A stretch of DNA of 54,400 nt, taken from positions 1 to 54,400 of the forward strand of contig JAKQKQ010000028.1 in NCBI GenBank assembly GCA_029560585.1, given 5' to 3'. The notes under the pieces are model-generated. The model ran no database searches and was not told the DNA's origin. It saw only the letters and a program-made list of their open reading frames with translations. Made by a program: the position numbers and the translations under genes. The DNA comes from Verrucomicrobiota bacterium (GTDB lineage: Bacteria; Verrucomicrobiota; Verrucomicrobiia; JADLBR01). This document shows, in pieces, positions 14,941 to 42,230 of this stretch (positions are counted from its first letter, which is position 1; every line of letters begins with the position of its first letter).

Positions 14941-15018
14941 CAACCACGAAGGGTACGAAGCTCACGAAGCCATACAACTGGGCAAACCTTCGCGCCCTTC
15001 GTGTCCTTCGTGGTTCAA
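14941..15018. repeat. Family A repeat (CACGAAGG/CCTTCGTG inverted repeat)
   Basis: AACCACGAAGGGTACGAAG and CTCACGAAGCC are mirrored by CCTTCGTGTCCTTCGTGG-TTCAACC about 50 bases later. This makes a long hairpin that fills the 85-base gap between the GT4 and the asparagine synthase. The right arm overlaps the last codons of the GT4 gene (NAHG then stop at 15015). Confidence 0.75.
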
Positions 15019-16160
15019 CCATGCGCATTCAATTGTCCGAGGTGCTCCCTCAGCTGCGCCTCAAACCGCGCGTACCCGTATTTCGCCACCACCGCGTCCC
15101 GCAGCGCCTGCGGGCGATGGATCAGCGCGTGCCGGTACTCGCCCAGCAGGATCTCGGCGAGGGTCTTCGCGATCTGTCCCACGTCATCCGGGTCAATCAG
15201 CGCGCCGAGCTCCCCATCGCACAGCGCGTCGCGCGATCCATCCAGATTGCCCGCAACCACCGGCTTGCCACACGCCAGTGCCTCAAGAAACACGATGCCA
15301 AATCCCTCCCCCTTGCTCGGCATCGCAAACACATCGCACAGGTTGTAGTGGTCGCACAGTTCGGACTCTGGAACGAAACCCGCCAGCGACACGTGATCCT
15401 CCAACCCCATGTCCCGGACGCGGCGCTCCACCCGCCCCCTGTCGTCACCCTTGCCCACAAGCAGGTAGTGCACCTGCGGCACGCGTTCCAGTATCGATGG
15501 CATCGCCTCGATGATCTTGTCGTAGCCCTTGTACCGCTCCGGGCTGGAGAGCCGCGCCACCGTGAGTATGACCGGCTGGCGCGCCGATATCCCGTATCGC
15601 CGAAGCAGGTATTCTGGCTTGGGGCCCGGCGTGAGGCCCCCCTCGTCGAATGTGTTGGGCAAGAGGCTCAACCGGTCTGGGGGGAGATCCAATTGTTCGA
15701 CCAACCGGTCCCGCGTGAATCGGCTCACCGCCAGGATCCGCTGCGAGCCGCGCACCGCCTCGCGCATCCCGGGTCGGCGCAGGTTCCACGCCTCGATGCC
15801 GTGCGCGATGATCCAATACGGAATCCCCCTCCATCGATGCACCCAATGCGCCGCCAGCGCGAAATTCATGTGCCCGCAGATGATCAGATCGGGGCGATCC
15901 CGCAACGCAGCCGGTACGATCTGCCCCACGAACGCCACCGTCCGCGTCACCCCGGGCCAATCGCCCGCACACACCGCACCGACCCCGTTGGGCAATGCGC
16001 CCCCCAGCGAATCGGCCCGGTCATTCTTGCATAACAATCGCAGCCGCCCACCGCCGAGACTCGCCATCAAGGCCCTCAGGAAAAACCCGGAGAACACCTG
16101 GATGCCCCCCTTCGTTCGACCCAAGTCAGGAAGCCAGAGATGAATTTTCGCAGCGCTCAT
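15015..16160 (-). CDS. Glycosyltransferase family 4 (PimB/MshA-like)
   Basis: This is a 381-residue GT-B retaining glycosyltransferase. The N-terminal domain has LPDLGRTKGGIQVFSGFF with the Gly-Gly acceptor loop, DLIICGHMNFALAA and a WIIAHGIEAWNL strand. The donor domain has PVILTVARLSSPERYKGYDK (conserved Arg and Lys for nucleotide diphosphate) and KGEGFGIVFLEALACGKPVV with the E-x7-E pair. The 'YKGYDK' form resembles GDP-mannose-type GT4 enzymes, but the donor is not certain. It starts at ATG 16160 and lies between two repeat-bearing gaps. Confidence 0.88.
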   Translation of the reverse strand: MSAAKIHLWLPDLGRTKGGIQVFSGFFLRALMASLGGGRLRLLCKNDRADSLGGALPNGVGAVCAGDWPGVTRTVAFVGQIVPAALRDRPDLIICGHMNFALAAHWVHRWRGIPYWIIAHGIEAWNLRRPGMREAVRGSQRILAVSRFTRDRLVEQLDLPPDRLSLLPNTFDEGGLTPGPKPEYLLRRYGISARQPVILTVARLSSPERYKGYDKIIEAMPSILERVPQVHYLLVGKGDDRGRVERRVRDMGLEDHVSLAGFVPESELCDHYNLCDVFAMPSKGEGFGIVFLEALACGKPVVAGNLDGSRDALCDGELGALIDPDDVGQIAKTLAEILLGEYRHALIHRPQALRDAVVAKYGYARFEAQLREHLGQLNAHG

Positions 16161-18831: not shown

Positions 18832-18885
18832 GGCGAAGCCCACGCGCGGGGTTCTTGGAGCAAGGCACTAGATCTCGAGATTCCA

Positions 18886-18945
18886 ACCACGAATGAGCAC
18901 GAATGGCCCAGAAACGTATTCGTGTTCATTCGTGGTTGCCAGGCT
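18886..18945. repeat. Family A repeat (ACCACGAATGAGCACGAATG)
   Basis: The left arm ACCACGAATGAGCACGAATG is mirrored by CGTATTCGTGTTCATTCGTGG, a near-perfect hairpin with a short loop. It occupies most of the 120-base gap between two glycosyltransferase genes and ends 8 bases from the GT4 stop. Confidence 0.75.
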
Positions 18946-18952
18946 GTCCTGT

Positions 18953-20137
18953 TCAAGTTTTTCGATTTGCGGTTTCCCTCAGTACCGCAAGCAGCTTTTC
19001 CGCCTGACGGTCTAAATCGAAATCCCGCTCCACCCGTTCCCGGCCTGCCACCACCAATCTCTCCCGGAGCGCCGCGTCATCGCACAATCGCGCCAACGCT
19101 GCCGCGAGCTGGTCGGGCGCGCACCGATCCACCAGCAGCCCGCTGACGCCATCCTCCACCACGTTTACCGCCCCCCCGCTGCGGGTCGCCACCACGGGCA
19201 CCCCCACCGCCATCGCCTCCGCCAATACCAATCCAAACCCCTCCTCATGACGCGAGGCCAAGACAAAGGCATCCACATTCTCGTGAAACTCCCGCGCGTG
19301 CTCCATCCACCCGCAAAAGCCAACCCGCCCCCCGAGGCCCCGCTCCGTCACAAATGTCCGCAATTGCTCGTAATACGCGCCCTGTTGCCTGCCGCCGATC
19401 ACCACGCGCAACGATGGGACGCGATCGCGGAGCAGATCCAAAGCCCCCAGAACATCGAGATGCCCCTTCCGGTCGTGCATCTGCCCCGCGATCCCAGCGA
19501 TGAACACATCGCCATCCCACCCGAACTGCCGCGCAAAGCGATCCCCTCGCCTCGCCCTGGGCGCGAATTCGGCCCGATCAATCCCATTGTGTATCACGGT
19601 CACCCGCGAGGGATCCACCGGGAACTCCAACAGCCGGTCCCGCACGCTTTCCGCAATCGCCACGAATCGGGTCACCGGCCGTGCCCACACCCTAAAGCTC
19701 GCCAGCTGGAAAGGAATATTCGGGGGCGGATCATGCATGTGGCAGACCACCGGAATCCCCATCGCCCAAAGCATCGGATGCAGCAGGATCAACTCGTGGT
19801 TGTTCGAGGTGTACACGACGTCCGGCCGGAACCGGCGCACGAGCCGATGATAGCACAAGAACAACTGGGGCGCCCTGAAGACGCATTCCAGCGTCATCTT
19901 CAGGTTCCGCGGATCGAGCTTTCTCGAGAACATCCCCATCCACGCCGTCGCGTACGGGATCCCCAAGCCATCCAGCCGCCGACCGAATTCCCCATCGCTC
20001 CACTTCGTGAGGAGAAAATGGCAGTCGGCCGATGCCCGCAGCCGCGAGAAGAAGTCCAGCGTCACCACCTGCAGACCAAACACGTACGGCGCCGGCACCA
20101 CGGCCAAGACCCGCAGCCGATTCGAGCCAGAATTCAC
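18953..20137 (-). CDS. Glycosyltransferase family 4
   Basis: This is a 394-residue GT-B enzyme. The N-terminal domain has VLAVVPAPYVFGLQVVTLDF, DVVYTSNNHELILLH and VVCHMHDPPPNIPF. The donor domain has VFIAGIAGQMHDRKGHLDVL, a RVGFCGWMEHAREFHENVDAF segment and RHEEGFGLVLAEAMAVGVPVV with the E-x7-E donor-binding pair. The stop lies just before a family A repeat and the start just after another one, so the gene is framed by repeats. Donor and linkage cannot be predicted. Confidence 0.87.
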   Translation of the reverse strand: MNSGSNRLRVLAVVPAPYVFGLQVVTLDFFSRLRASADCHFLLTKWSDGEFGRRLDGLGIPYATAWMGMFSRKLDPRNLKMTLECVFRAPQLFLCYHRLVRRFRPDVVYTSNNHELILLHPMLWAMGIPVVCHMHDPPPNIPFQLASFRVWARPVTRFVAIAESVRDRLLEFPVDPSRVTVIHNGIDRAEFAPRARRGDRFARQFGWDGDVFIAGIAGQMHDRKGHLDVLGALDLLRDRVPSLRVVIGGRQQGAYYEQLRTFVTERGLGGRVGFCGWMEHAREFHENVDAFVLASRHEEGFGLVLAEAMAVGVPVVATRSGGAVNVVEDGVSGLLVDRCAPDQLAAALARLCDDAALRERLVVAGRERVERDFDLDRQAEKLLAVLRETANRKT

Positions 20138-20151
20138 GTTCTTCTCAATTC

Positions 20152-20270
20152 CTAAACCACGAAGATCACGAACTTCACGAAGCCAACCCGAACGCAGCCA
20201 TCAGAAATTCGATTCCTCTCGAAGAAAATCCGAAAACCTTCGTGTTCTCTGTGCCCTTCGTGGTTCAACC
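20152..20270. repeat. Family A repeat upstream of the GT4 gene
   Basis: AAACCACGAAGATCACGAAC and TTCACGAAGCC are mirrored by CCTTCGTGTTCTCTGTGCCC and TTCGTGGTTCAACC, so a long interrupted hairpin spans about 110 bases. The middle contains an AGAAATTCGATTCC piece reminiscent of family E. No gene is seen. Confidence 0.7.
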
Positions 20271-26925: not shown

Positions 26926-27144
26926 TTATGTTCTATTCCCATTTTCCGCTTTCCGAATTCCGAATTCGGCGATCGCCTCATTTAAGATGACTTTCCAGCG
27001 GTCCCCATACGCCCCCCACGTGAACCGCTCCGCGGTCGTGCGCGCGGCCGCACCCATCTCCGCCAACCTGCCCCGGCTCTCGATGCACCAGCGCATCCTC
27101 GCCTCACGACTATCGACGTCTTCAGCAGAAACCAGAGACCACAC
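26926..27144 (-). pseudogene. 3' fragment of a GT4 glycosyltransferase gene
   Basis: The 72-codon frame reads VSAEDVDSREARMRWCIE, then SRGRLAEMGAAARTTAERFT and WGAYGDRWKVILNEAI. It is nearly the same as the C-terminus of the full GT4 at 27911-29158 (MRWCIENRGSLAEMGAAARTTAERFTWGAYGERW region), also at DNA level (27000-27110 versus 27985-28095). It lacks the N-terminal domain and donor site, so it cannot be an active transferase. Its tail runs into a TTCGAA repeat, which supplies the stop. It lies directly downstream of the methyltransferase whose other neighbour is the intact GT4. It probably marks a duplication followed by deletion. Confidence 0.75.
26935..26975. repeat. Family E repeat, right flank of the four-helix-bundle gene
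   Basis: ATTCCCATTTTCCGCTTTCC and GAATTCCGAATTCGGCGATC, overlapping the 3' end of the GT4 fragment, where it encodes its last residues (FGIRKAENGNRT). Confidence 0.65.
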
Positions 27145-27910: not shown

Positions 27911-29158
27911 CTAAGCGGAATCGTATTTTTGTGGCGCGCTGGTGAGGTCGATTGCTCCCTCGAGAATCTCCGCCCACCTCTCTCCATACGCCCCCCATGT
28001 GAACCGCTCCGCGGTCGTACGCGCGGCCGCACCCATCTCTGCCAAACTGCCACGGTTCTCGATGCACCAGCGCATCTTCGCCTCCAGCGCGTCCACGTCG
28101 CCGGCCGGAACCAGAAACCCGTCGCGTCCTTCGCTGATGAAATCAGGCCCGCCCGTGGCCTCGGTCGTAATCGCCGGTAACCCGCTTGCCATCGCCTCCA
28201 GGATCACCAGACCAAAACCTTCGAAGAGACTCGGGAACACGAACACGTCGCAGTCGGCAAACAGCCGCGGGAGTTCCGAGTTTGGGACAGATCCCCGGAC
28301 CGAAAGCCCGGGCAGGCCGGGGATCAGCTTTCGGACGTCGGGCGCCGCCGGTCCCACGAGCCGCAGCTCGGCATCCGAGGATTTGAGCCGCCGCCATGCC
28401 TCGAGCAGCAAGGGCAGGCCCTTGCGCGCCTGAAGCGCACCGACGAAAATGAATCGCAGTGGCCGATTCGCCGCGTCGCGATCGCCCATGCGGAAGCGCT
28501 CGAGGTCCACGCCATAGGGATTCACACGGATCTTGGCGCCACCCACCCCATGCTCGATCAGGGTCCTCCTCGTGAACGTGCTCGCGACAACGATCCGTTT
28601 GGCCTGCGCATGCTCCTCTCGCTCTCCCGCCAGCACATCCGCTCGGCGCACCTGATAGGTGTCCGACCAATCGGGATAGCTCTCGGCCAATGTTTGGTGC
28701 AACCGCTCCCTCGCCAATGGGTGCGCGATGCTCTGGTCCAGTATGAAAGGAATGCCGAGCGCGCCGCACCGTTTCGCAAGGATCCAAGAGGCGGTGTCGA
28801 ATCCGACGACGGCATCCGCCCCGGCCAGGACGGCATCCGGTATCCCCCGCTGAAATGCGGCATTGCGCCGCCAATAAAGTTCCTCGCCCCCGCCCAACCA
28901 AGACTTCCACAGGAGGGCCCACAGCTCAACCGATGCCAAACACCGAAGCTTCGCGGATGGCACACCCGCCAGCGCACGGCTCGACAGCTTCCTCCGAATC
29001 CCGGCTGAGGGAATAGACGTCCGCAAGAATCTCCCAAGGCGAGAATCCGCCGGATAGGCGAATCCGGTCCAAAACATCTCCAAGAGGCCCAGGCGTGACA
29101 GTTCTGCCGCAAGCCTGAACGCGTGCTGCGTCCCGGGATGGGTGACGATGACCCTCAT
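27911..29158 (-). CDS. Glycosyltransferase family 4
   Basis: This 415-residue GT-B enzyme begins MRVIVTHPGTQHAFRLAAEL. GFDTASWILAKRCGALGIPF and DQSIAHPLARERLHQTL form the N-terminal domain. RFIFVGALQARKGLPLLLEA, VRGSVPNSELPRLFADCDVF and LFEGFGLVILEAMASGLPAI (E-x7-E) form the donor domain. Its last 60 codons have a near copy at 26926-27144. It is the upstream partner of the methyltransferase at 27166, so a glycosyl/methyl pair acting in sequence is plausible. The donor is not known. Confidence 0.88.
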   Translation of the reverse strand: MRVIVTHPGTQHAFRLAAELSRLGLLEMFWTGFAYPADSRLGRFLRTSIPSAGIRRKLSSRALAGVPSAKLRCLASVELWALLWKSWLGGGEELYWRRNAAFQRGIPDAVLAGADAVVGFDTASWILAKRCGALGIPFILDQSIAHPLARERLHQTLAESYPDWSDTYQVRRADVLAGEREEHAQAKRIVVASTFTRRTLIEHGVGGAKIRVNPYGVDLERFRMGDRDAANRPLRFIFVGALQARKGLPLLLEAWRRLKSSDAELRLVGPAAPDVRKLIPGLPGLSVRGSVPNSELPRLFADCDVFVFPSLFEGFGLVILEAMASGLPAITTEATGGPDFISEGRDGFLVPAGDVDALEAKMRWCIENRGSLAEMGAAARTTAERFTWGAYGERWAEILEGAIDLTSAPQKYDSA

Positions 29159-30344: not shown

Positions 30345-30418
30345 ACACTCGCAGGAGCCTGCTTGCAGGCGACGCCATGCGCGAATCGCGCGCAAGCGCG
30401 CTCCTACACCGGGATCCT
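30345..30418. repeat. Family C repeat between GT2 and the second asparagine synthase
   Basis: GCAGGAGCCTGCTTGCAGGC, then the inverse partner AATCGCGCGCAAGCGCGCTC and CTACACC, fill most of the gap 30311-30417. The same arms occur in reverse orientation at 1969-2023 and twice at 39204-39297. The right end overlaps the last codons of the upstream gene. Confidence 0.75.
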
Positions 30419-33524: not shown

Positions 33525-33841
33525 ACCGTGCGATCAAAGCGATTCAGAAGGAAAGCCGACACAAAGACCGTCATTTTAACCTCAAACAGAGAACCAAATC
33601 CCCTCCGTTACCTCTGTTCCCTCCTGTTCAAATCCCGCATCACACGCACCGAGGCCCGCGCACTTCCCAACAGGAGCGAACAGCGATTCCCCCATTCCCT
33701 CGTGAGAGGAACCACGAAGGGCACGAAGCGCACGGAGGGCGCAAGAAGCCTATGGGTTCCCCGCGGTGGTCCGGCTTCGTGTACTCTGTGGTGAAAATCC
33801 GTCCCACCGGTGCCCGCGCTGTCCAATATCCATCCCACCGG
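33525..33841. repeat. Gene-free gap with a family A repeat
   Basis: The only clear structure is at 33705-33797: GGAACCACGAAGGGCACGAA with GCGCACGGAG is mirrored by CCGGCTTCGTGTACTCTGTG and TGGTGAAA, a broken family A hairpin. The rest, 33525-33700, shows no gene, repeat or terminator. Confidence 0.65.
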
Positions 33842-34421: not shown

Positions 34422-34500
34422 GCCTAACCACGAAGGGCACGAACGGAAGGGGCTTCCGCCTCTGGTTACGCTCACTTCGTGTTCTTCGTGGTTAAAAAAT
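34422..34500. repeat. Family A repeat between acyltransferase and GT2
   Basis: AACCACGAAGGGCACGAACG on the left is mirrored by CACTTCGTGTTCTTCGTGG-TTAAAA on the right, with a GGGGCTTCCGCCTC inner hairpin. It fills the gap almost completely (34400-34510). Confidence 0.75.
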
Positions 34501-34510
34501 CCACCAGCCT

Positions 34511-35455
34511 CTAGCCCTGGCCGCGCGCCCCGTTCCCCGCGCCCAGAATCCGGAAGATCCCCCTCAGTTTTCCCCAAACAACCGCGGGCAATCTCGCCCA
34601 ACCGCTTGCCGAGCGAAGACCCGACGCGATTGAAAACAATTCCCACGCGACGAGCCTCGAATAGTCACCAAACCGCTTCATTCCCCGGATTCTTGTCATG
34701 ATGAAATGGCGATTGACTAACTCCATGGCGGCACCGCGCGCGACTCCCAATCTGCCCCGTCCCGCACCGGTGTCATGAAATATGCGGGCCTTGCGTGCGC
34801 TCGCCAATCGCCATTTCCGCGCGACGGTCAATGACAGCGCGAGATCCTCGCCAAGCGAATACCCGATGAAGTGCGGATGAAACGGCGGATCTGGCAGGGC
34901 CTCGCGACGATAGAGGGTGACACCCAGATTGAGCCAATCCACGGGCGACACCTCGGGCAGATCATCGCGACTGTCGGGCAGGAAATTGAGTCCCGGCCCA
35001 ATGCAACGTCCCGCATAGCTGGGCAGCCGTGCGCCATTCAGCCAGGCATAGAACGCACCGCTCACCCGGCCCGGGGCATGATACTCCTGATTGGTGATAA
35101 CCGCATTCACGCCGCCGAGCCCGGGATCGCCCGAGATCGCATCCCAGAGCGCCCGGAGGCACCCCGGCTCCAAGACCACGTCATCATCCGCAAACAGGAT
35201 GAAGGGCTGCGTCGAGGCGGCCACCCCCTCGTTGCGCTGGCTCGCCGCGCCAACCTTCTCGGCGCACCGATGCACGCATCGGCCGGCGGCGCCCCCCGCG
35301 GCGGCGCAGAGTTCCCGCGTCCTCGCATCGCGCGATGCGTCCACCACCACCATCTCCGCGAGGGCCAGCTCCTGCGCCCGGAGGGAGGCGAACAGGTTGG
35401 CCAGCTTCTCCGGCCGATCCTTCGTCGCGATGACCGCCGTTACAGGTATTTTCAT
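34511..35455 (-). CDS. Glycosyltransferase family 2, paralog of the gene at 37071
   Basis: This is a 314-residue GT-A enzyme: KIPVTAVIATKDRPEKLANL, MVVVDASRDARTRELC, SQRNEGVAA and FILFADDDVVLEPGCLRAL (metal site), then VITNQEYHAPGRVSG, GRCIGPGLNF and YSLGEDLALSLTVARKWRL with the ED pair. It shares these blocks in order with the gene at 37071-38012, so the two arose by duplication. The frame is open to 35632, but the first 59 residues are repeat translation, so ATG 35455 (MKIPVTAV) is preferred. The donor sugar is unknown. Confidence 0.86.
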   Translation of the reverse strand: MKIPVTAVIATKDRPEKLANLFASLRAQELALAEMVVVDASRDARTRELCAAAGGAAGRCVHRCAEKVGAASQRNEGVAASTQPFILFADDDVVLEPGCLRALWDAISGDPGLGGVNAVITNQEYHAPGRVSGAFYAWLNGARLPSYAGRCIGPGLNFLPDSRDDLPEVSPVDWLNLGVTLYRREALPDPPFHPHFIGYSLGEDLALSLTVARKWRLASARKARIFHDTGAGRGRLGVARGAAMELVNRHFIMTRIRGMKRFGDYSRLVAWELFSIASGLRSASGWARLPAVVWGKLRGIFRILGAGNGARGQG

Positions 35456-35527
35456 TCTTTCGTGCCAGGACGCAGGGGCGCCAAGAGACCTTGAGAGAAT
35501 TCGTGCTTGTTCGTGTTCATTCGTGGT
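35456..35527. repeat. Family F/A repeat at the end of the next GT2 gene
   Basis: TTTCGTGCCAGGACGCAGGG, GGCGCCAAGAG and TTCGTGCTTGTTCGTGTTCA-TTCGTGG follow one another. The TTCGTGTTCATTCGTGG arm is inside the coding frame of the upstream gene, where its inverse spells KNHE and the stop TGA (35517-35519). Confidence 0.72.
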
Positions 35528-36449
35528 TCTTGAAATACGCCGCCAGCGGATCGGGCACGGCCATGGCCCGCAGCATCGACTTTGCCCGCCACCACAGGAA
35601 TCGCGACAGTGGCACCGATGGCATGCGGACACCGATATACCCCAAGCTCTCCTCCAGCCGCGCGGCCCTGCCAGAAATCCGCGCGACCTCTAAGAGATCG
35701 GGCAGAAGTCCCGGGCCATACCGGCGCCAAATCTGCCGGTGCAGCCTCTGGCGCCCGCGGGAAAGCGCGCGCCGCGGGCCGGGCTCGATGGCCAATCCCT
35801 CGCCCTGCGGCGCGGACCACACCGCGAGCGGCTCCGCCGCGAAATACACCGGTTCCTCGATCTGCAACGTCCGACAGTGCTCCTGTAAAACCGTGTCCTT
35901 CACGGACGGTCCCACCCGCAGGCGGCTCTGCGCGTCCGTCCGCCAGAACAGTGCCCCGTTGGCGACGCCCAACCCAAAAAAGAGCCGCGCGTGGAGCGCG
36001 CGCGGTTCCTGGCGACCTTCGGCGTACAGCGCGCCCAGTGTGGTCTCTCCGCCGATGGCGCCGTCCCGCCAGATGCACTGATTGCGCATGAGCAGGGAGC
36101 AACCCGAGTCGGCCAAGGCACGCAGGTTGGCCTCAAGGCATGTGGGCAGGAGCCAATTGTCATCCTCCAAGACGCAGGCAAACGCCCCTCCCGCCATCGG
36201 CCCCTCGGTGAACGCCTGATCGATATTGCCCGCGGCCCCGAGTGGATCGCGGTTCACCGCGTATCGGATCCGCCCGTCCCCCAGCGCTTGGACCACCGCC
36301 TCGCCCTCGCGCTCAGACGAATCATCCAGCACCAGCGCCACCCATTCGCCGTGCGTCTGCGCGATCAGGCTTTGCAGCGCCCGGCGCAACCATTCCGGCC
36401 GACGGTGCGTCGGAACCCGAATTTCGCACAAGTCGGAGAGAGTTACCAT
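35517..36449 (-). CDS. Glycosyltransferase family 2, stop codon provided by a repeat
   Basis: This is a 310-residue GT-A enzyme: CEIRVPTHRRPEWLRRALQS, ALVLDDSSEREGEAVVQAL, AAGNIDQAF and CVLEDDNWLLPTCLEANL, where EDD is the probable metal site. MRNQCIWRDGAIGGETTLGA and FGLGVANGALFWRTDAQSRL follow. It differs from the two paralogs either side of it. The last residues FKNHE and the TGA are encoded by a family A repeat, so the natural end may have been a few residues different. The start MVTLSDL at 36449 lies right beside another repeat. Confidence 0.82.
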   Translation of the reverse strand: MVTLSDLCEIRVPTHRRPEWLRRALQSLIAQTHGEWVALVLDDSSEREGEAVVQALGDGRIRYAVNRDPLGAAGNIDQAFTEGPMAGGAFACVLEDDNWLLPTCLEANLRALADSGCSLLMRNQCIWRDGAIGGETTLGALYAEGRQEPRALHARLFFGLGVANGALFWRTDAQSRLRVGPSVKDTVLQEHCRTLQIEEPVYFAAEPLAVWSAPQGEGLAIEPGPRRALSRGRQRLHRQIWRRYGPGLLPDLLEVARISGRAARLEESLGYIGVRMPSVPLSRFLWWRAKSMLRAMAVPDPLAAYFKNHE

Positions 36450-36494
36450 GGATTCTGCCCCGCCGGACCCTCCGTCCTCCGGTCAGACTCGATC

Positions 36495-36620
36495 ATCCGC
36501 CACAAAGAGGCCCAAGAAACACGAAGATACGAACCCCCTCTACGACTCCTGTGCCTCCTCGTGGTCATCCGTCCTCCCGTCACTCGCGATCATGCGCCAC
36601 GAAGAAGCAAAAATGTCACT
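36495..36620. repeat. Family A relatives, left flank of the GxxExxY gene
   Basis: GCCACAAAGAGGCCCAAGAA and ACACGAAGATACGAA are mirrored by CTCCTGTGCCTCCTCGTGG at 36545-36563, then GCGCCACGAAGAAGCAAAAA at 36595. The pieces form an interrupted hairpin. Together with 37028-37068 they bracket the small gene. Confidence 0.6.
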
Positions 36621-36636
36621 ATCGCACCGCTACGTC

Positions 36637-37020
36637 CTAGATCGCATCGAGAATGTACTTTTTAATATGGAGTTTTGGTGCTCCGAAGTTGACCAAGAGA
36701 CCATGTTCGATTCGCGAACACCTGAGGTATCCAAGCAATTGTGTAACGTGATCGTCTGTCACAAGTCGACACGCCTTGAGTTCGACAATGAGCAGCCCTT
36801 CGACAAAGAGATCCGCAAAGAACTCGCCCAAAATCATTCCATCCGCATCCCTGACGGTTAGCGGCCATTGCTGAAGAACATCCAGTCCCTGCTTGCGTAG
36901 TCTGTGCGCCAGTCCGTTCTCATAAACTTTCTCCATGTGTCCGGAGCGTAGATACCGGTGCAGTTCAAAACTCGTCGTACGGATCACATCACACAGCTGA
37001 TTAATGTTTTCCCACCCCAT
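36637..37020 (-). CDS. GxxExxY protein (PD-(D/E)XK nuclease-like fold)
   Basis: This is a 127-residue protein of a family found widely in PVC and other environmental bacteria; its function is unknown. RSGHMEKVYENGLAHRLRKQ carries the eponymous G-x-x-E-x-x-Y, and LGEFFADLFVEGLLIVELKA shows an Asp...Glu-x-Lys arrangement like PD-(D/E)XK nucleases. HVTQLLGYLRCSRIEHGLLV and NFGAPKLHIKKYIL complete the usual order. AGGATAGGGT just before the ATG could bind the ribosome. It interrupts the GT2 genes and has family A repeats on both sides, so it may be a small mobile passenger. Confidence 0.9.
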   Translation of the reverse strand: MGWENINQLCDVIRTTSFELHRYLRSGHMEKVYENGLAHRLRKQGLDVLQQWPLTVRDADGMILGEFFADLFVEGLLIVELKACRLVTDDHVTQLLGYLRCSRIEHGLLVNFGAPKLHIKKYILDAI

Positions 37021-37027
37021 ACCCTAT

Positions 37028-37068
37028 CCTGATTTCTTCGTGCCTCCTGTGCCTCCTTGTGGCTGTTC
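37028..37068. repeat. Family A relative, right flank of the GxxExxY gene
   Basis: TTTCTTCGTGCCTCCTGTGC and CTCCTTGTGGCTG lie between the GxxExxY start and the stop of the upstream GT2. They are the inverse of the CACAAGGAGG / GGCACGAAGAA pattern. They resemble the pieces at 36495-36565 on the other side. Confidence 0.6.
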
Positions 37069-37070
37069 AA

Positions 37071-38012
37071 TCAATAGCATCCCATGCGCCATGCGGTCTC
37101 GATCACGCGCGGGAGCGCCTGCAGCTTCCCAACGAGCGACGGCACAAGAATCCGCCGTCCCAGGGGCGTCCTCAGCAGCGACAGCAGCATGAACGCCTGA
37201 TAGGCGGCGAACCGAAGATGATCGCCCGCGCCGTCTTTGCCAAGCACGCGCGCCATGATATAGTGCCGCCCGACCATCTCGATCGCGGCGAACTGCCTCG
37301 CCCCACACTTGATCTCACCCTTGACCCGATCGTGATAGACCCGCGCACCCCGCATATTGGCCAACCGCCAGCGTCTCGCGACGACCAGCGACAGCGCCAT
37401 GTCCTCGACAAGGGAATAGGCCTTGAAAAATGGATCGAATACCGGATCCGGCAATGCCTCGCGCCGATACATGACGCAGGTCGTCGGCGCCCAGTCGATG
37501 GGCGCAATCTCCGCACGCCCCGGCGCATCCCATGACAAGAAACCCACGGCCGGGCCGATGCACCGGCCCGAGAAATCATCCATGTCGCCGCCGTTCAGCC
37601 ACGCGAAGAACCGCCGACTGATCCGCCCGAGGGGGTGATATTGCTGGTTGGTGATGAGCGCGCTCGCACCGCCCAGTCCCCCATCCGACGCCAGGGCCTC
37701 ATACAGCGCCCCCAGGCACCCCGGCTCCATGACGACATCGTCATCCGCAAAAAGTACAAATGGTTTAGACGAAAGCGACACCCCCTGATTCCGCTGCGCG
37801 CCCGCGCCACGCTCCACGGCCCGCGCATAGGTCACCCGGGCCGCGGAATCCTCCGAGTTCTCGCAGAGCGCACGCGTCCGACCATCGGACGACGCGTCCA
37901 CCACCACCAGCTCTGCGGCGCGCCCCTTCTGTGCCCACAGGCTCGCGAGCAGATTGGCCAGCTTTTCGGGCCGATCCCCGGTCGCGATCACGACGGAAAC
38001 GGGAATGTCCAT
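37071..38012 (-). CDS. Glycosyltransferase family 2, paralog of the gene at 34511
   Basis: This is a 313-residue GT-A enzyme: IPVSVVIATGDRPEKLANLL, LVVVDASSDGRTRALC, AQRNQGVSL and FVLFADDDVVMEPGCLGAL, then LITNQQYHPLGRIS, FSGRCIGPAVGFL and YSLVEDMALSLVVARRWRL. The same blocks in the same order appear at 34511-35455, so this is a duplicated transferase that may place a different sugar. ATG 38012 (MDIPVSV) is preferred to 38027, because the first five residues of the longer form are not conserved. It is separated from the next gene by 29 bases. Confidence 0.86.
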   Translation of the reverse strand: MDIPVSVVIATGDRPEKLANLLASLWAQKGRAAELVVVDASSDGRTRALCENSEDSAARVTYARAVERGAGAQRNQGVSLSSKPFVLFADDDVVMEPGCLGALYEALASDGGLGGASALITNQQYHPLGRISRRFFAWLNGGDMDDFSGRCIGPAVGFLSWDAPGRAEIAPIDWAPTTCVMYRREALPDPVFDPFFKAYSLVEDMALSLVVARRWRLANMRGARVYHDRVKGEIKCGARQFAAIEMVGRHYIMARVLGKDGAGDHLRFAAYQAFMLLSLLRTPLGRRILVPSLVGKLQALPRVIETAWRMGCY

Positions 38013-38041
38013 GCTGCAGAACGGCAAGACTCTGGAGATGC

Positions 38042-38908
38042 TCAGCGCGGATCCGCCTTCCCGGCGCCCTTGGGCCGACGCACGGCCGCGACGATGCCCT
38101 CTCCCGAGGTAGCCGTCGTTTCATCGAGCATCACGGAGGTCGTGAATCCCTCGCGCGAGAGCATGTCGAGTGCGCCCCGCCATGATTCCCGGTTGCCGTG
38201 CCACTCGAGGAAGATGGCCGATCTCTCGGGCAGGATGGGCATCAGTCTCGGCAAGAGCTGATGCTCGGCGCCCTCCACGTCCATCTTGACAATCAACCGC
38301 CCGGCCCGCTGTCGACCGACGAGATCGTTGAGATCGACCGTGCGCACGCGGATCGAGTCACGCACTCCGTTTTCGACAAGTGCGCCGCGAAAGCTGTTCC
38401 CGGAAAAGTACGCCCATCCCTCCTCAAGTGCCGCGGCCGCGGGAACGAGTTCTGCGGCGATGCCATTCTCGCTCACGTGTGACGCGAGGCGGTCGTAGTT
38501 GTCCGGATTCGGCTCAAGGCTCACGATTCGCGCTGACGGAAACGTGACGCCCGCCAGACAGGTGAAGAAACCGACATGGGCCCCGCAATCCACGACGACG
38601 TCGGGCTCGAAATCCACGATGTCCAGAGGATAGTGGCGCCACAAAAACACCGCCTCGAAGGTGATGAAATCATCGAAGTGCCGAAACCGCACGCTCAGCC
38701 GCTTTCCCGCTTTGCCCGGCACCGCAAATTCGTGCCACGATTTCAGGAGCGCACTCCACGTGGGCGCCATGAGCCGATTGTGAAGCGCGCCGATGGCGGC
38801 CCATCGCATGCGCGACGGCAATGAGACCCCCAGTGGCGAAAACGCGATCATGCGCGATCGCGCATTCCCCGCCTTTTGCGCCAAGATTCTTAGGATGTTC
38901 TCCGCCAT
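38042..38908 (-). CDS. FkbM family methyltransferase
   Basis: This is a 288-residue SAM methyltransferase: VVVDCGAHVGFFTCLAGVTF (motif I), IVSLEPNPDNYDRLASHV (acidic residue after strand 2) and VKMDVEGAEHQLLPRLMPIL, with the DxEGxE of the family. It follows about 100 residues without a recognised domain. It probably O-methylates a sugar. A GTG at 38914 would add two residues; ATG 38908 is preferred, with GAGGTG just upstream. It is the third FkbM gene in the locus and not closely related to the other two. Confidence 0.87.
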   Translation of the reverse strand: MAENILRILAQKAGNARSRMIAFSPLGVSLPSRMRWAAIGALHNRLMAPTWSALLKSWHEFAVPGKAGKRLSVRFRHFDDFITFEAVFLWRHYPLDIVDFEPDVVVDCGAHVGFFTCLAGVTFPSARIVSLEPNPDNYDRLASHVSENGIAAELVPAAAALEEGWAYFSGNSFRGALVENGVRDSIRVRTVDLNDLVGRQRAGRLIVKMDVEGAEHQLLPRLMPILPERSAIFLEWHGNRESWRGALDMLSREGFTTSVMLDETTATSGEGIVAAVRRPKGAGKADPR

Positions 38909-39321
38909 CGGCACCTCACGTCCTCGCCTGAGTCCCCAAATTCAGCCAGCATTGCCATGCGCGCGCCGGATCATTGGCCAAAGCGGCGCGTTTGCGCGCC
39001 GCACTCCAAAAACTCCTGCCCCTCGCGTCTTGGAGTGCGGCGGCGCCGCCGCCGCTTTCCACGGCCGGCAGAGCCGGCGTTCCGCCCCCTGCCAAAGCGG
39101 TAACGTCGCTCCACTTTGCACCGCATGAGGACCAGGCATTTTCATTCCCGGTGGTCCGGCAGCCGCCGGATGGAATCTGACCCGAAAACTCAGACATCGA
39201 ATCGTAGGAGCCTGCTTGCAGGCGACGCGCATCGCGCGCAAGGGCGCTCCTACGAGGGACACCATGCCCGCATCGCGCGCAAGCGCGCTCCTACGTCCCA
39301 TTTTCACCCCAGGTGGGGCCG
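38909..39321. repeat. Gene-free gap with families B and C repeats
   Basis: 38998-39042 has GCCGCACTCCAAAA and its inverse TCTTGGAGTGCGGC, then GCCAAAGCGGTAACGTCGCT to 39127, a variant of family B. 39136-39155 is the inverse of the GGGGATGAAAATG block. 39204-39297 holds two family C copies with GTAGGAGCCTGCTTGCAGGC and CGCGCGCAAGCGCGCTCCTA. 39299-39320 again is the GATGAAAATG block in inverse. No gene is seen. Confidence 0.75.
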
Positions 39322-40536
39322 CTAGCCGTTCGCGCGCGCCCCGCCCGCCGCGATCGCATCCTCGATCCCCGATTGAAAGGCTCGGAACAGAACGTCGTGC
39401 GCAAAGGTCGAGCGCGCCGCATTGAGGGCGGCATCGATCAAGGACTGCCTCAAGGCGCCGTCCTCGCGAAGGGCGGACACCGCCCCCGCCAGCGCATCCT
39501 CCGAACTGGGCTGATCGACCCACATGGCGCGCCGGGGAGGACCCGCGGCCCAGTTGGCGGCGGCGCTCCCCCGCGGGGCAAACAGTAGAATCGGCAGACC
39601 GAAGGCCGTGTATTCGGCGAGTTTCGTGGGGAACAACAGTTTCCCGTTGAGCCCGATCAGGTGATCCACGATCGCCACCAGGACATCGGCTGACCGGCGG
39701 ATGTGCGCCGAGATCTCGCCCGCGGGCACTGGATCACGGACCTCGATCCCCTTGTGGCCGAACCGCGCGTCCTCCCGGAGCCGGGTCGCGGCGGCCGTAT
39801 AGATGATGAGGTGCGCACCCCGCTCACCCAAGCAGCGGCCGAGTTCCGCGAGTCGATCGACAATGCCATCCGAGTGGATGGAACCCGCGTATAGAAAATT
39901 CATCGGGCGTTGGCCCCGCGCGTCGGCGGGCGCCGTCATCCCGATCTGCGCGCCCATCGCCAAGCCGGGATAGAGGACCCGCGCGGGGACCCCGCAACGC
40001 TCCTCGTACTCGGATGCCATCTCGGGGCTTACACAGAATCGCACGGCAGTATCCCGATAGAATCTCTTCAGCACCCGCCCACGCCACTGCCCGAACAGAG
40101 GCCTCAACTGGTGTAAATCTGTCACGGCCTCGTCGTGGACGATGAGTGCCAGCGGCAGCCGATGACGGCGCGCCGCGCCCCACGCCCGCGCCCAGCCCGA
40201 GCCGTGCCATACGGTCACGATCACCTCCGGCCGAAATCGCCGGATAGCGCGATCGACGGCGGACGATGGCAGCCACGCGCGGACCGTTTCAAAAAGCCCG
40301 ATCGCCCCCGCCAGTCGCGTCCGCATCAGCCGCGCCCAGGCCCGCCTCACCACGATCCATTCGGCCGCGGAAACCGGCGGGCCGTCCGGCTCCACGGAAA
40401 CCACGCACAGCCTTTCGCTCGGGTGCGTCTCGAATAGCCGATACAACAAGAGGCAGCCGCCGTACGAGTTCGATGGGGCCACGTCGCCGATGTACATCAG
40501 CCGCCGAGGCGGGCATTCGTGTTTATCGGCGCTCAT
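39322..40536 (-). CDS. Glycosyltransferase family 4-like protein
   Basis: This 404-residue protein is GT-B in layout but lacks the clear E-x7-E donor pair. RRLMYIGDVAPSNSYGGCLL (N-terminal acceptor loop), VIVTVWHGSGWARAWGAARR, LALIVHDEAVTDLHQLRPLF, then NFLYAGSIHSDGIVDRLAEL and TKLAEYTAFGLPILLFAPRG in the donor domain. The N-terminus SADKHECPP before the homology comes partly from a repeat arm (AACACGAATGCCCG). ATG 40536 is chosen; an internal ATG 40497 (MYIGDVAP) is possible. The donor is unknown. Confidence 0.78.
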   Translation of the reverse strand: MSADKHECPPRRLMYIGDVAPSNSYGGCLLLYRLFETHPSERLCVVSVEPDGPPVSAAEWIVVRRAWARLMRTRLAGAIGLFETVRAWLPSSAVDRAIRRFRPEVIVTVWHGSGWARAWGAARRHRLPLALIVHDEAVTDLHQLRPLFGQWRGRVLKRFYRDTAVRFCVSPEMASEYEERCGVPARVLYPGLAMGAQIGMTAPADARGQRPMNFLYAGSIHSDGIVDRLAELGRCLGERGAHLIIYTAAATRLREDARFGHKGIEVRDPVPAGEISAHIRRSADVLVAIVDHLIGLNGKLLFPTKLAEYTAFGLPILLFAPRGSAAANWAAGPPRRAMWVDQPSSEDALAGAVSALREDGALRQSLIDAALNAARSTFAHDVLFRAFQSGIEDAIAAGGARANG

Positions 40537-41003
40537 CAATCAACACGAATCCCTTTCGGATCACCATCCGTGTGCATTCGTGTCTATCCGTGGTCCGCTT
40601 TCTCCCGCAGAGACGCAGGGACGCAGTGCCGTCACGTCCGCCGGGAGGGCCCGCGGCCTGAGCGTGTCTCAAAACCTCTGAACCGTGCCGCCTGGCACAG
40701 GCGGCCTACAAATTTAGTAGGGCATCTCTGTGAGATGCCGTGCATTGTCGCGCGCCGCACACCATTGGAAGTCCCCTCTATTATCAGATGGGCATTGATT
40801 GTTGGGTGTTCCGTGTTGGGAGTTTGAGTTTTGAGACAGCCTCGCCTCGCGGGCCGGGTCGGCCCAGGAACCGCGCATCCGGTGGGACTCATGCTTCACG
40901 CGCCGACTCCAACCACGAATGGACACCAATCAACACGAATCCCCATCCAGCGCCTTGAACAGGAGGCAACAGAGATAACGGAGCCATTCGTGTGCATTCG
41001 TGT
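40537..41003. repeat. Gene-free gap with families A, D, F and G repeats
   Basis: 40537-40600 has CAACACGAAT with GTGCATTCGTGTCTATCCGT, a family A half; 40600-40625 has TCTCCCGCAGAGACGCAGGG. 40685-40742 has CCGCCTGGCACAGGCGG and GGGCATCTCTGTGAGATGCC (family D). 40795-40845 has GTTGGGTGTTCCGTGTTGGG (family G). 40910-41003 has AACCACGAATGGACACCAAT mirrored by TTCGTGTGCATTCGTGTCTA. I see no gene; the frames here are repeat translations. Confidence 0.7.
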
Positions 41004-42230
41004 CTATTCGTGGTTCGCTTTCTCCCGCGGAGACGCAGGGGCGCAGAGAGTTCCACCTGGTATCCCCACCTTCTCCCAACCCGCGCGCCATGTGGCCCGA
41101 GCCGCCTCGACCGACAATCGCGTCGCCACCAGGCGCCGCGCATTCGCCAGCACGCGTCGCCGCAGTCCGGGGTCCCGCACGGCCTCCACCCCGCGTCGCA
41201 TCGCCTCGGTCGCGGGCGACGTGACAACCACCGCGGCATCCTCCGGCGCGAGGTAATCCACCATCGCGCTGTCGGACGGCCCGATCGCCAGCGTCATCGT
41301 CCCGCTGGCGAGGCACTCGGACATCTTGGTCGCGATATTGAAATGCGACATGTTTGCCAGCGCCTCTTTGAAACTGATGGGCAGCAGGACGGCGTCATAC
41401 TCGCGCATCTTGGCCACCACGTCCTCGGGGGCCGCGGCGCCGCGCGCGCTCACGCCCGCCACTTTGATCTCCTCTGGGAGATCCTGTCGTGACCACACAT
41501 CGAGGGTTGCGCGACGCGGGCTCACGGCCGCATTCACGAAGGCCTCCAGAGCATCGACCTGCCACGGCCCCACGTGCCCGAAATACCCGCACCGGATCGG
41601 GCCACCCCCCGACGAGATATCCCACCGCGGTTCCCCAACGGGGTCCGCTGGACCGAACAGGACCGTCGCTTCCACGCCAAACCTCTCCCGGTAGAATCTC
41701 CCGAGCGCCGGGCTGATGACGAACACGTGTGCCGCGCCCTGCAGGTGCGCCCGCATCAAGTCCTCCATCTCTGGATCATAGCGCCACGAATCACCCTCTC
41801 GCCGCAGGCAGTGGTCGTCCATCATCCACGTCACATAGGGAAACGGGTTTCCGCGGCGGATATCCCCCAAGATCCGAGGAACGAAATCCCCCTGGGGGCA
41901 CGCCAAGCATCGGACCCGATCCCTCCCCCGCAGCAGCGCCCGCATCCGCACTGCCGCGCGACGACAAAACGCCCGCCTCAGACCCGGACGCCTCGCCAAA
42001 CGATCCGCCATCGTGCACCCCAGCAATCGACGGCACCAGACCGTGTCCGGCCAGAAATCGATCTGCACTGACCTCGGAGCGAAACGCCGGGCCGGGGGCG
42101 CCTGCCGCGCGAATCCACCCGGATGCACGAACAGATCGAATGCATCCAGATCGGAACCCAACACCCGCTGCAAGGTCAGACCGCCGCCGTGGCCGTCCGA
42201 GACCGCCATTTCTGAAAAGAGAAGGTTCAC
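41004..42230 (-). CDS. Glycosyltransferase family 4-like protein, C-terminus provided by repeats
   Basis: This is a 408-residue GT-B-like protein: NLLFSEMAVSDGHGGGLTLQ at the N-terminus, then VRCLACPQGDFVPRIL, YVTWMMDDHCLRREGDSWRY and AHVFVISPALGRFYRERFGV. The donor domain has IRCGYFGHVGPWQVDALEAF and FNIATKMSECLASGTMTLAI. The last 15 residues GTLCAPASPREKANHE are the inverse translation of a family F block (CTGCGTCTCCGCGGGAGAAA) joined to a family A block, ending AAC CAC GAA TAG. The natural C-terminus was probably near WEKVGIPG. The enzyme itself looks complete. Confidence 0.8.
   Translation of the reverse strand: MNLLFSEMAVSDGHGGGLTLQRVLGSDLDAFDLFVHPGGFARQAPPARRFAPRSVQIDFWPDTVWCRRLLGCTMADRLARRPGLRRAFCRRAAVRMRALLRGRDRVRCLACPQGDFVPRILGDIRRGNPFPYVTWMMDDHCLRREGDSWRYDPEMEDLMRAHLQGAAHVFVISPALGRFYRERFGVEATVLFGPADPVGEPRWDISSGGGPIRCGYFGHVGPWQVDALEAFVNAAVSPRRATLDVWSRQDLPEEIKVAGVSARGAAAPEDVVAKMREYDAVLLPISFKEALANMSHFNIATKMSECLASGTMTLAIGPSDSAMVDYLAPEDAAVVVTSPATEAMRRGVEAVRDPGLRRRVLANARRLVATRLSVEAARATWRAGWEKVGIPGGTLCAPASPREKANHE

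Follow-up and report, generated by a model that had tools for sequence, protein, structure and literature searches.

Word-repeat palindromes, GxxExxY nuclease genes and the repeat-coded ends of two glycosyltransferase genes in a Verrucomicrobiota genome

Two glycosyltransferase genes of a Verrucomicrobiota bacterium end, stop codon included, inside copies of a dispersed repeat, which raises the question of how they came by such ends. The window, i.e., the whole stretch of DNA that was analyzed (54,400 nt), is the complete contig C220, and the draft genome to which it belongs comprises 7.06 Mb. The features concerned are:

35517-36449, minus strand: GT2 gene (Glycos_transf_2, PF00535), ending KNHE-TGA, with the last residues NHE and the stop within an arm
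35499-35528, minus strand: left-type arm behind GT2, three words AACCACGAAT GAACACGAAC AAGCACGAAT, the GT2 stop starting inside the first word
41004-42230, minus strand: GT4-like glycosyltransferase gene (Glyco_trans_1_2, PF13524), with repeat-coded tail TLCAPASPREKANHE and TAG stop
40880-41055, minus strand: composite dispersed element (blastn) of a family F block, a family A arm, a CTCCGTTATCTCTGTTGCCTCCTGTTCAA block and an inverted A arm
26926-27140, minus strand: duplicate of the GT4 C-terminus (gene 27911-29158), without a start and about 65 codons long

As a preliminary description of this DNA had claimed, the stop and the last three residues (NHE) of both genes lie inside AACCACGAAT arms. 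Only these residues and the stop are repeat in GT2. The GT4 protein has the C-terminus CAPASPREKANHE-TAG, and its tail is repeat-derived as described, lying from T41051 onward within the 176-nt composite with its family F block. The composite element folds as an RNA hairpin (40905-41020, z -5.34); a second copy is found on contig C176 (L075:3475-3629, 79% identity), and a 63-nt part occurs again at 40564-40626 (92% identity). This recurrence of the F block and A arm lies 420 nt from the composite element, and a CTCCGTTACCTCTGTTCCCTCCTGTTCAA-type block (compare 33603-33631) is located inside the loop of the 40911-41015 palindrome; the repeat elements on the contig appear to nest in one another.

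The word AACCACGAAT has 31 copies in the genome, against three for the pattern read backwards, and this contig, which makes up 0.8% of the genome, holds five of them. The pattern AACCACGRA occurs 147 times against 41 for its reverse. From these counts the repeat is therefore real, above chance and clustered on the contig. Ten of the 15 AACCACGAA copies in the window form five inverted pairs, all of which fold as RNA hairpins (z -2.67 to -5.47); a strict palindrome pattern gave no matches. Four of the palindromes are solo, i.e., gene-less, copies of family A:

14942-15015, no strand: z -4.89; the final A of the TGA stop of gene 15015-16160, minus strand, doubles as the first A of the arm
18885-18937, no strand: z -5.47; 15 nt past the stop of gene 18953-20137, minus strand
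20155-20265, no strand: z -2.67
34426-34493, no strand: z -4.57; 17 nt past the stop of gene 34511-35455, minus strand

The arm behind GT2 is single, with no matching inverted partner and no hairpin (RNA fold z -0.13).

Within the interval singled out in the preliminary description, inverted arms of the same repeat type also flank a gene, forming a cassette:

36637-37020, minus strand: GxxExxY protein, PD-(D/E)XK_3 nuclease family (TIGR04256, PF13366), with the domain residues E22, D62, E72 and K74 present
37035-37063, minus strand: left arm of the cassette, GCCACAAGGAGGCACAGGAGGCACGAAGA, 7 nt past the stop of the GT2 gene 37071-38027
36499-36527, minus strand: right (inverted) arm of the cassette, inverted-repeat score 33

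This gene scores 106 bits against TIGR04256 (cut-off 35). We sought the family in the window's genome and 56 relatives and found it in 31 of these 57; 87 matches were used after two fragments on G029:C114 and one match below the cut-off on G003:C140 had been dropped. The consensus residue is kept at E22 in 86, D62 in 85, E72 in 76 and K74 in 85 of the 87 proteins. To score the flanks, the 200 nt upstream of each gene were compared with the reverse complement of the 200 nt downstream. At a threshold score of at least 30, inverted flanks were present at 62 of the 87 GxxExxY genes, compared to one of 236 non-adjacent and seven of 150 adjacent control ORFs from the same loci (longest-ORF picks, some of which may be counted twice in the overlapping loci L202 and L204); the other 25 GxxExxY genes have no inverted flanks at this score. 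An arm consists of an 8-11-nt word in about three iterations, the two arms of a cassette being inverted, and a significant self-period was detected in 31 of the 49 arms of at least 24 nt. The words vary by copy and include, among the cassettes listed, CACGAAG, CACGGAT, CACAGAG, GCAAAGG, ACAGGATT, CATGAAG, CAGGAAAG and CGCTTAA. The three GxxExxY copies in the window's genome carry CACGGAT; CACGGAT/CACAGAT; and CACAAGG...CACGAAG, and none of the three carries the exact word CACGAAT.

Eight plasmid records with GxxExxY from other phyla were scored as well. Two pass the flank threshold, from Bacteroides (45) and Bernardetia (36), and those from Sphingomonas (one arm only, 17), Fusobacteria (13), Persicobacter (18), Gemmatirosa (broken frame, 15), Treponema (22) and Prevotella (22) score below it. 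The three named genomes behind L044-L046 (two of these loci hold the GT2 relatives discussed below) gave a single GxxExxY match (L216), with a flank score of 14. A search of solved structures gave no match to GxxExxY by sequence, and no relative was found in viral contigs or in phages. A single-sequence structure prediction of the window protein was set aside (mean pLDDT 50.3). In the open-access literature searched, GxxExxY appears in two papers, neither of which deals with repeats, and six arm sequences gave no relevant match there.

Word and nuclease vary together. Across the 62 cassettes, similarity of the proteins correlates with similarity of the arms when the two members of a pair come from different host families (rho 0.253 over 1706 pairs; none of 500 permutations). 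The same holds for left arms only, a test which took in 53 of the 62 cassettes (arms of up to 60 nt; rho 0.269 over 1248 pairs; none of 1000 permutations, whether free or within families). In the left arms, word similarity climbs from 0.157 to 0.41 with protein similarity, and for 47 of the 53 cassettes the closest protein from another family comes with a word of above-average similarity. Within the same genome, the left and right arms of one cassette match each other (means 39.7-80.7), compared to 10-34 for the arms of other copies.

Gene-less copies are dispersed as well. It was predicted beforehand that G021, G029 and G025, where ACAGGATT cassettes had been observed, would have the most solo copies of ACAGGATT. 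We counted 86 copies in G029, 34 in G021 and three in G025, against a mean of 0.96 in the other 54 genomes and none for the reversed pattern; the forecast thus held for two of the three genomes, with G025 low. The main exceptions are G015 (19 copies), where the word is on none of the cassettes among those listed, and G013 (eight copies), where one copy lies 48 nt before a GxxExxY gene outside the cassette count. Nine of the loci read in G029 have similar arm-loop-arm units, each about 95 nt long.

The repeats could instead be ordinary intergenic hairpins, terminator- or REP-like, with GxxExxY as a structure-specific nuclease whose gene inserts into the loop of any palindrome. The strong folding of paired arms and the large number of words would fit such an origin, as would the arms that have no gene: the window's genome has more family A arms than GxxExxY genes, and G041 has 49 of these arms and no GxxExxY match. 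However, the words track nuclease similarity across host families, even against within-family permutation, which argues against insertion into any palindrome and makes this explanation rather unlikely.

Where the elements lie bears directly on the gene ends. Cassettes and solo copies sit between co-directional genes. In the 52 of 62 cassettes with a same-strand ORF of at least 100 codons ending within reach, the upstream stop precedes the left arm by a median of 3.5 nt (IQR -1 to 13), and in 58 of 62 the next start codon follows the right arm at a median of 11.5 nt. For the window's genome, 46 supported arms were classified: 20 have a same-strand gene upstream, 14 an opposite-strand gene, and the remaining 12 either lie at the end of a locus or have no assignable position. 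Seven of the 20 lie within -12 to +5 of the upstream stop compared to 2.3 expected (p about 0.004), and the GT2 and GT4 arms are the -12 cases among them.

Filled and empty versions of the same gap were identified for two sites. A Bacteroides finegoldii record has, in order after radA, an arm, GxxExxY, an inverted arm and a FAD gene; in Parabacteroides distasonis, the gap from radA to the FAD gene is 13 nt. Sphingomonas parapaucimobilis has one arm and GxxExxY between fabD and fabG, which in S. paeninsulae are about 31 nt apart. The neighboring genes are intact at these sites. The pairs span species or genera and by themselves neither date nor polarize the change, and no target-site duplication was found in them, the pairs being too diverged to reveal one. 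An unrelated frame of 225 codons occupies, in Phocaeicola massiliensis (L275), the radA gap that holds the B. finegoldii cassette.

The same operon gaps are occupied by cassettes in different genera; from the translated sequences we take these to be cysD-cysN and gatA-gatB. The order gatA-GxxExxY-gatB is common to two genomes of one family, and vertical inheritance explains some shared positions of this kind. In G027, the gatA-gatB gap (L218) holds the start of a GxxExxY gene followed after about 227 nt by gatB; judging from its sequence, this is a degraded cassette at the position filled in the two genomes of the same family. An exact empty gatA-gatB site was also sought: many gaps are short, and the closest pair (L225/L227) has another palindrome instead of the cassette.

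Such shared positions, together with the location between co-directional genes, are what would be expected if the arms were kept for a host function, e.g., as hairpins in operon mRNA, and GxxExxY were a vertically inherited passenger; the arrangement common to one family and its remnant in G027 point the same way. Against this, copies within one genome are diverged and have different words, sites filled in one genus or species are empty in a related one, and similar nuclease-word pairs are found in different host families. A host function of this type is, in our view, quite improbable as the main explanation.

The ends of GT2 and GT4 were compared with those of their relatives. The GT2 relatives L044 and L045 (41-42% identical; from an Acidobacteriota MAG and a Leptolyngbyaceae MAG) are in register with the window protein through NPLEDYL and NPLESYL, where the window reads DPLAAYF, and then finish in unrelated short tails; from that Y to the stop there are 12 residues in L044, seven in L045 and five in GT2. 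For GT4, four of six loci were used in the alignment (L128 and L129, which have no usable frame, were left out). The relatives L127, L032 and L033 and the same-genome paralog L035 end about where the window reads GWEKVGIP, and GGTLCAPASPREKANHE after this motif is extra in the window. Because the relatives stop at approximately WEKVGIP, the tail of the window GT4 is an addition, and the gene is intact and extended by about 15 repeat-coded residues. No GT4 orthologue near enough for a DNA comparison was found among 57 and 387 genomes. The proposal that the two genes had lost their own ends does not agree with these comparisons: relatives align within a few residues of the end of GT2, both genes reach the ends of their relatives, and the repeats abut intact genes. 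The repeat-coded tails themselves were confirmed.

The repeat was also said always to give NHE-stop in this orientation. This is not the case: among the 31 AACCACGAAT copies in the genome, NHE is followed by a stop in nine and by Trp in 12 (codon after AACCACGAA: TGG 12, TGA 8, TGC 3, TAG 1, others 7). Over all AACCACGAA sites in the fetched stretches, NHE-stop occurs at nine of 85. Around the 122 AACCACGRA sites in these stretches, GT2 and GT4 are the only predicted genes that end in NHE-stop, and three further predicted genes have one or two bases of their stop codon in an arm. The stretch at 26926, which had been listed as a third gene fragment ending in a repeat, does end AEFGIRKAENGNRT-stop within TTCGAA-type repeats; being start-less and duplicated, it is a remnant, not a gene. 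The duplication is partial (26995-27140 versus 27974-28119, 84%) and lies within a glycan gene cluster. The idea that dispersed repeats stand ready to provide stop codons and so rescue genes without ends of their own thus retains the last codons and stop of two genes and a start-less remnant that ends in another repeat, yet with both genes reaching their relatives' ends, NHE-stop in a minority of copies and no further gene ending in this way, it is very improbable. Repeats as a source of stop codons have already been described for GTAG REPs, and in-frame fusions of small mobile repeats have been reviewed (PMC2229807).

We favor, at a probability of roughly two in three, an explanation in which the arms are the ends of a nuclease-linked palindromic element working like REPIN-RAYT. 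The AACCACGAAT blocks would be arms of small palindromic elements, which hold between the inverted arms either a short loop (solo copy) or the gene of a GxxExxY PD-(D/E)XK nuclease (cassette). As nuclease lineage and word are matched, we infer that the nuclease recognizes its own word and moves the element: it may cleave at the word and move or copy the cassette, and solo copies may be moved in trans. The CACGAAT arms of the window would likewise have come from a GxxExxY-type element. The elements would occupy gaps flanked by genes of the same direction, the left arm lying at the upstream stop codon; this stop would usually be kept or overlap the arm by one or two bases (TGA or TAA plus ACC). 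An arm landing a few bases before the stop would code for the last residues and a new stop, as in GT2 and GT4. Since arms start near the upstream stop and occasionally a few bases before it, this fits the two gene ends better than a loss of ends does, and we read the odd C-termini as a by-product of element placement.

The proposed element has several known counterparts. PD-(D/E)XK homing endonucleases such as I-Ssp6803I have the nuclease fold, and a homing gene may spread by its own cleavage; in contrast to these, there is no intron or intein host here, and homing genes are not known to have such arms or solo copies. Closer is the resemblance to REP/REPIN-RAYT systems, which have palindromic solo copies, a repeat-flanked gene and a repeat class matched to its cognate gene, and whose repeats seem to need the cognate RAYT gene to reach high abundance (PMC3686654). 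The enzymes differ, RAYT being a Y1/HUH tyrosine transposase, whereas the flanked gene here matches PF13366/TIGR04256 only and not the Y1 (HUH) transposase. So do the repeats: the arms are iterated 8-11-nt words that begin with AACC, GCC, TTTTTGAC, etc., and lack GTAG or CGTC tags. The element would therefore work like REPIN-RAYT without being a member.

Bacterial MITEs (Correia/NEMIS, ERIC, RUP, RU-1/2/3) are also short inverted-repeat elements, and some are fused in frame to ORFs, including at the C-terminal end (PMC2229807). The solo copies of the window and the units of about 95 nt in G029 share with them terminal inverted repeats on a short non-coding element. The GxxExxY cassettes, which have arms of this kind, may be a parent element. 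No parent insertion sequence was identified here, nor a target-site duplication in the diverged filled and empty pairs; the arms consist of repeated words, and the gene linked to them encodes a nuclease. Rickettsia palindromic elements are likewise read as parts of proteins (reviewed in PMC2229807), but these are reported within ORFs, in contrast to the arms at ORF ends described here.

A wider proposal is that GxxExxY nucleases and their word-matched arms form a class of autonomous mobile elements across bacterial phyla, with several repeat families frequent in environmental bacteria (e.g., those of the words CACGAA, CACAGA, GCAAAG, ACAGGATT and CATGAAG) as its arms and gene-less copies settling at upstream stops; at present we would put this at even odds. 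The GxxExxY family, of little-known role, would then gain a testable one as the word-specific nuclease of a small mobile element, and seemingly unrelated repeat families would be grouped as one kind. Repeat-coded gene ends would be explained as a side effect of where the element settles, and REPIN-RAYT would be joined by another, independent system in which repeat and enzyme are matched, its enzyme being unrelated.

The contig holds a second repeat class, palindromic blocks of the type GTAGGAGC... at 1968-2025, 30350-30407 and 39202-39294, which look like genuine GTAG-type REP doublets. At the contig end (53993-54400) there is a 117-bp tandem array of CACGGAT-type arms. Contig C176 (L075) begins with a similar array, and the two contigs therefore probably adjoin.
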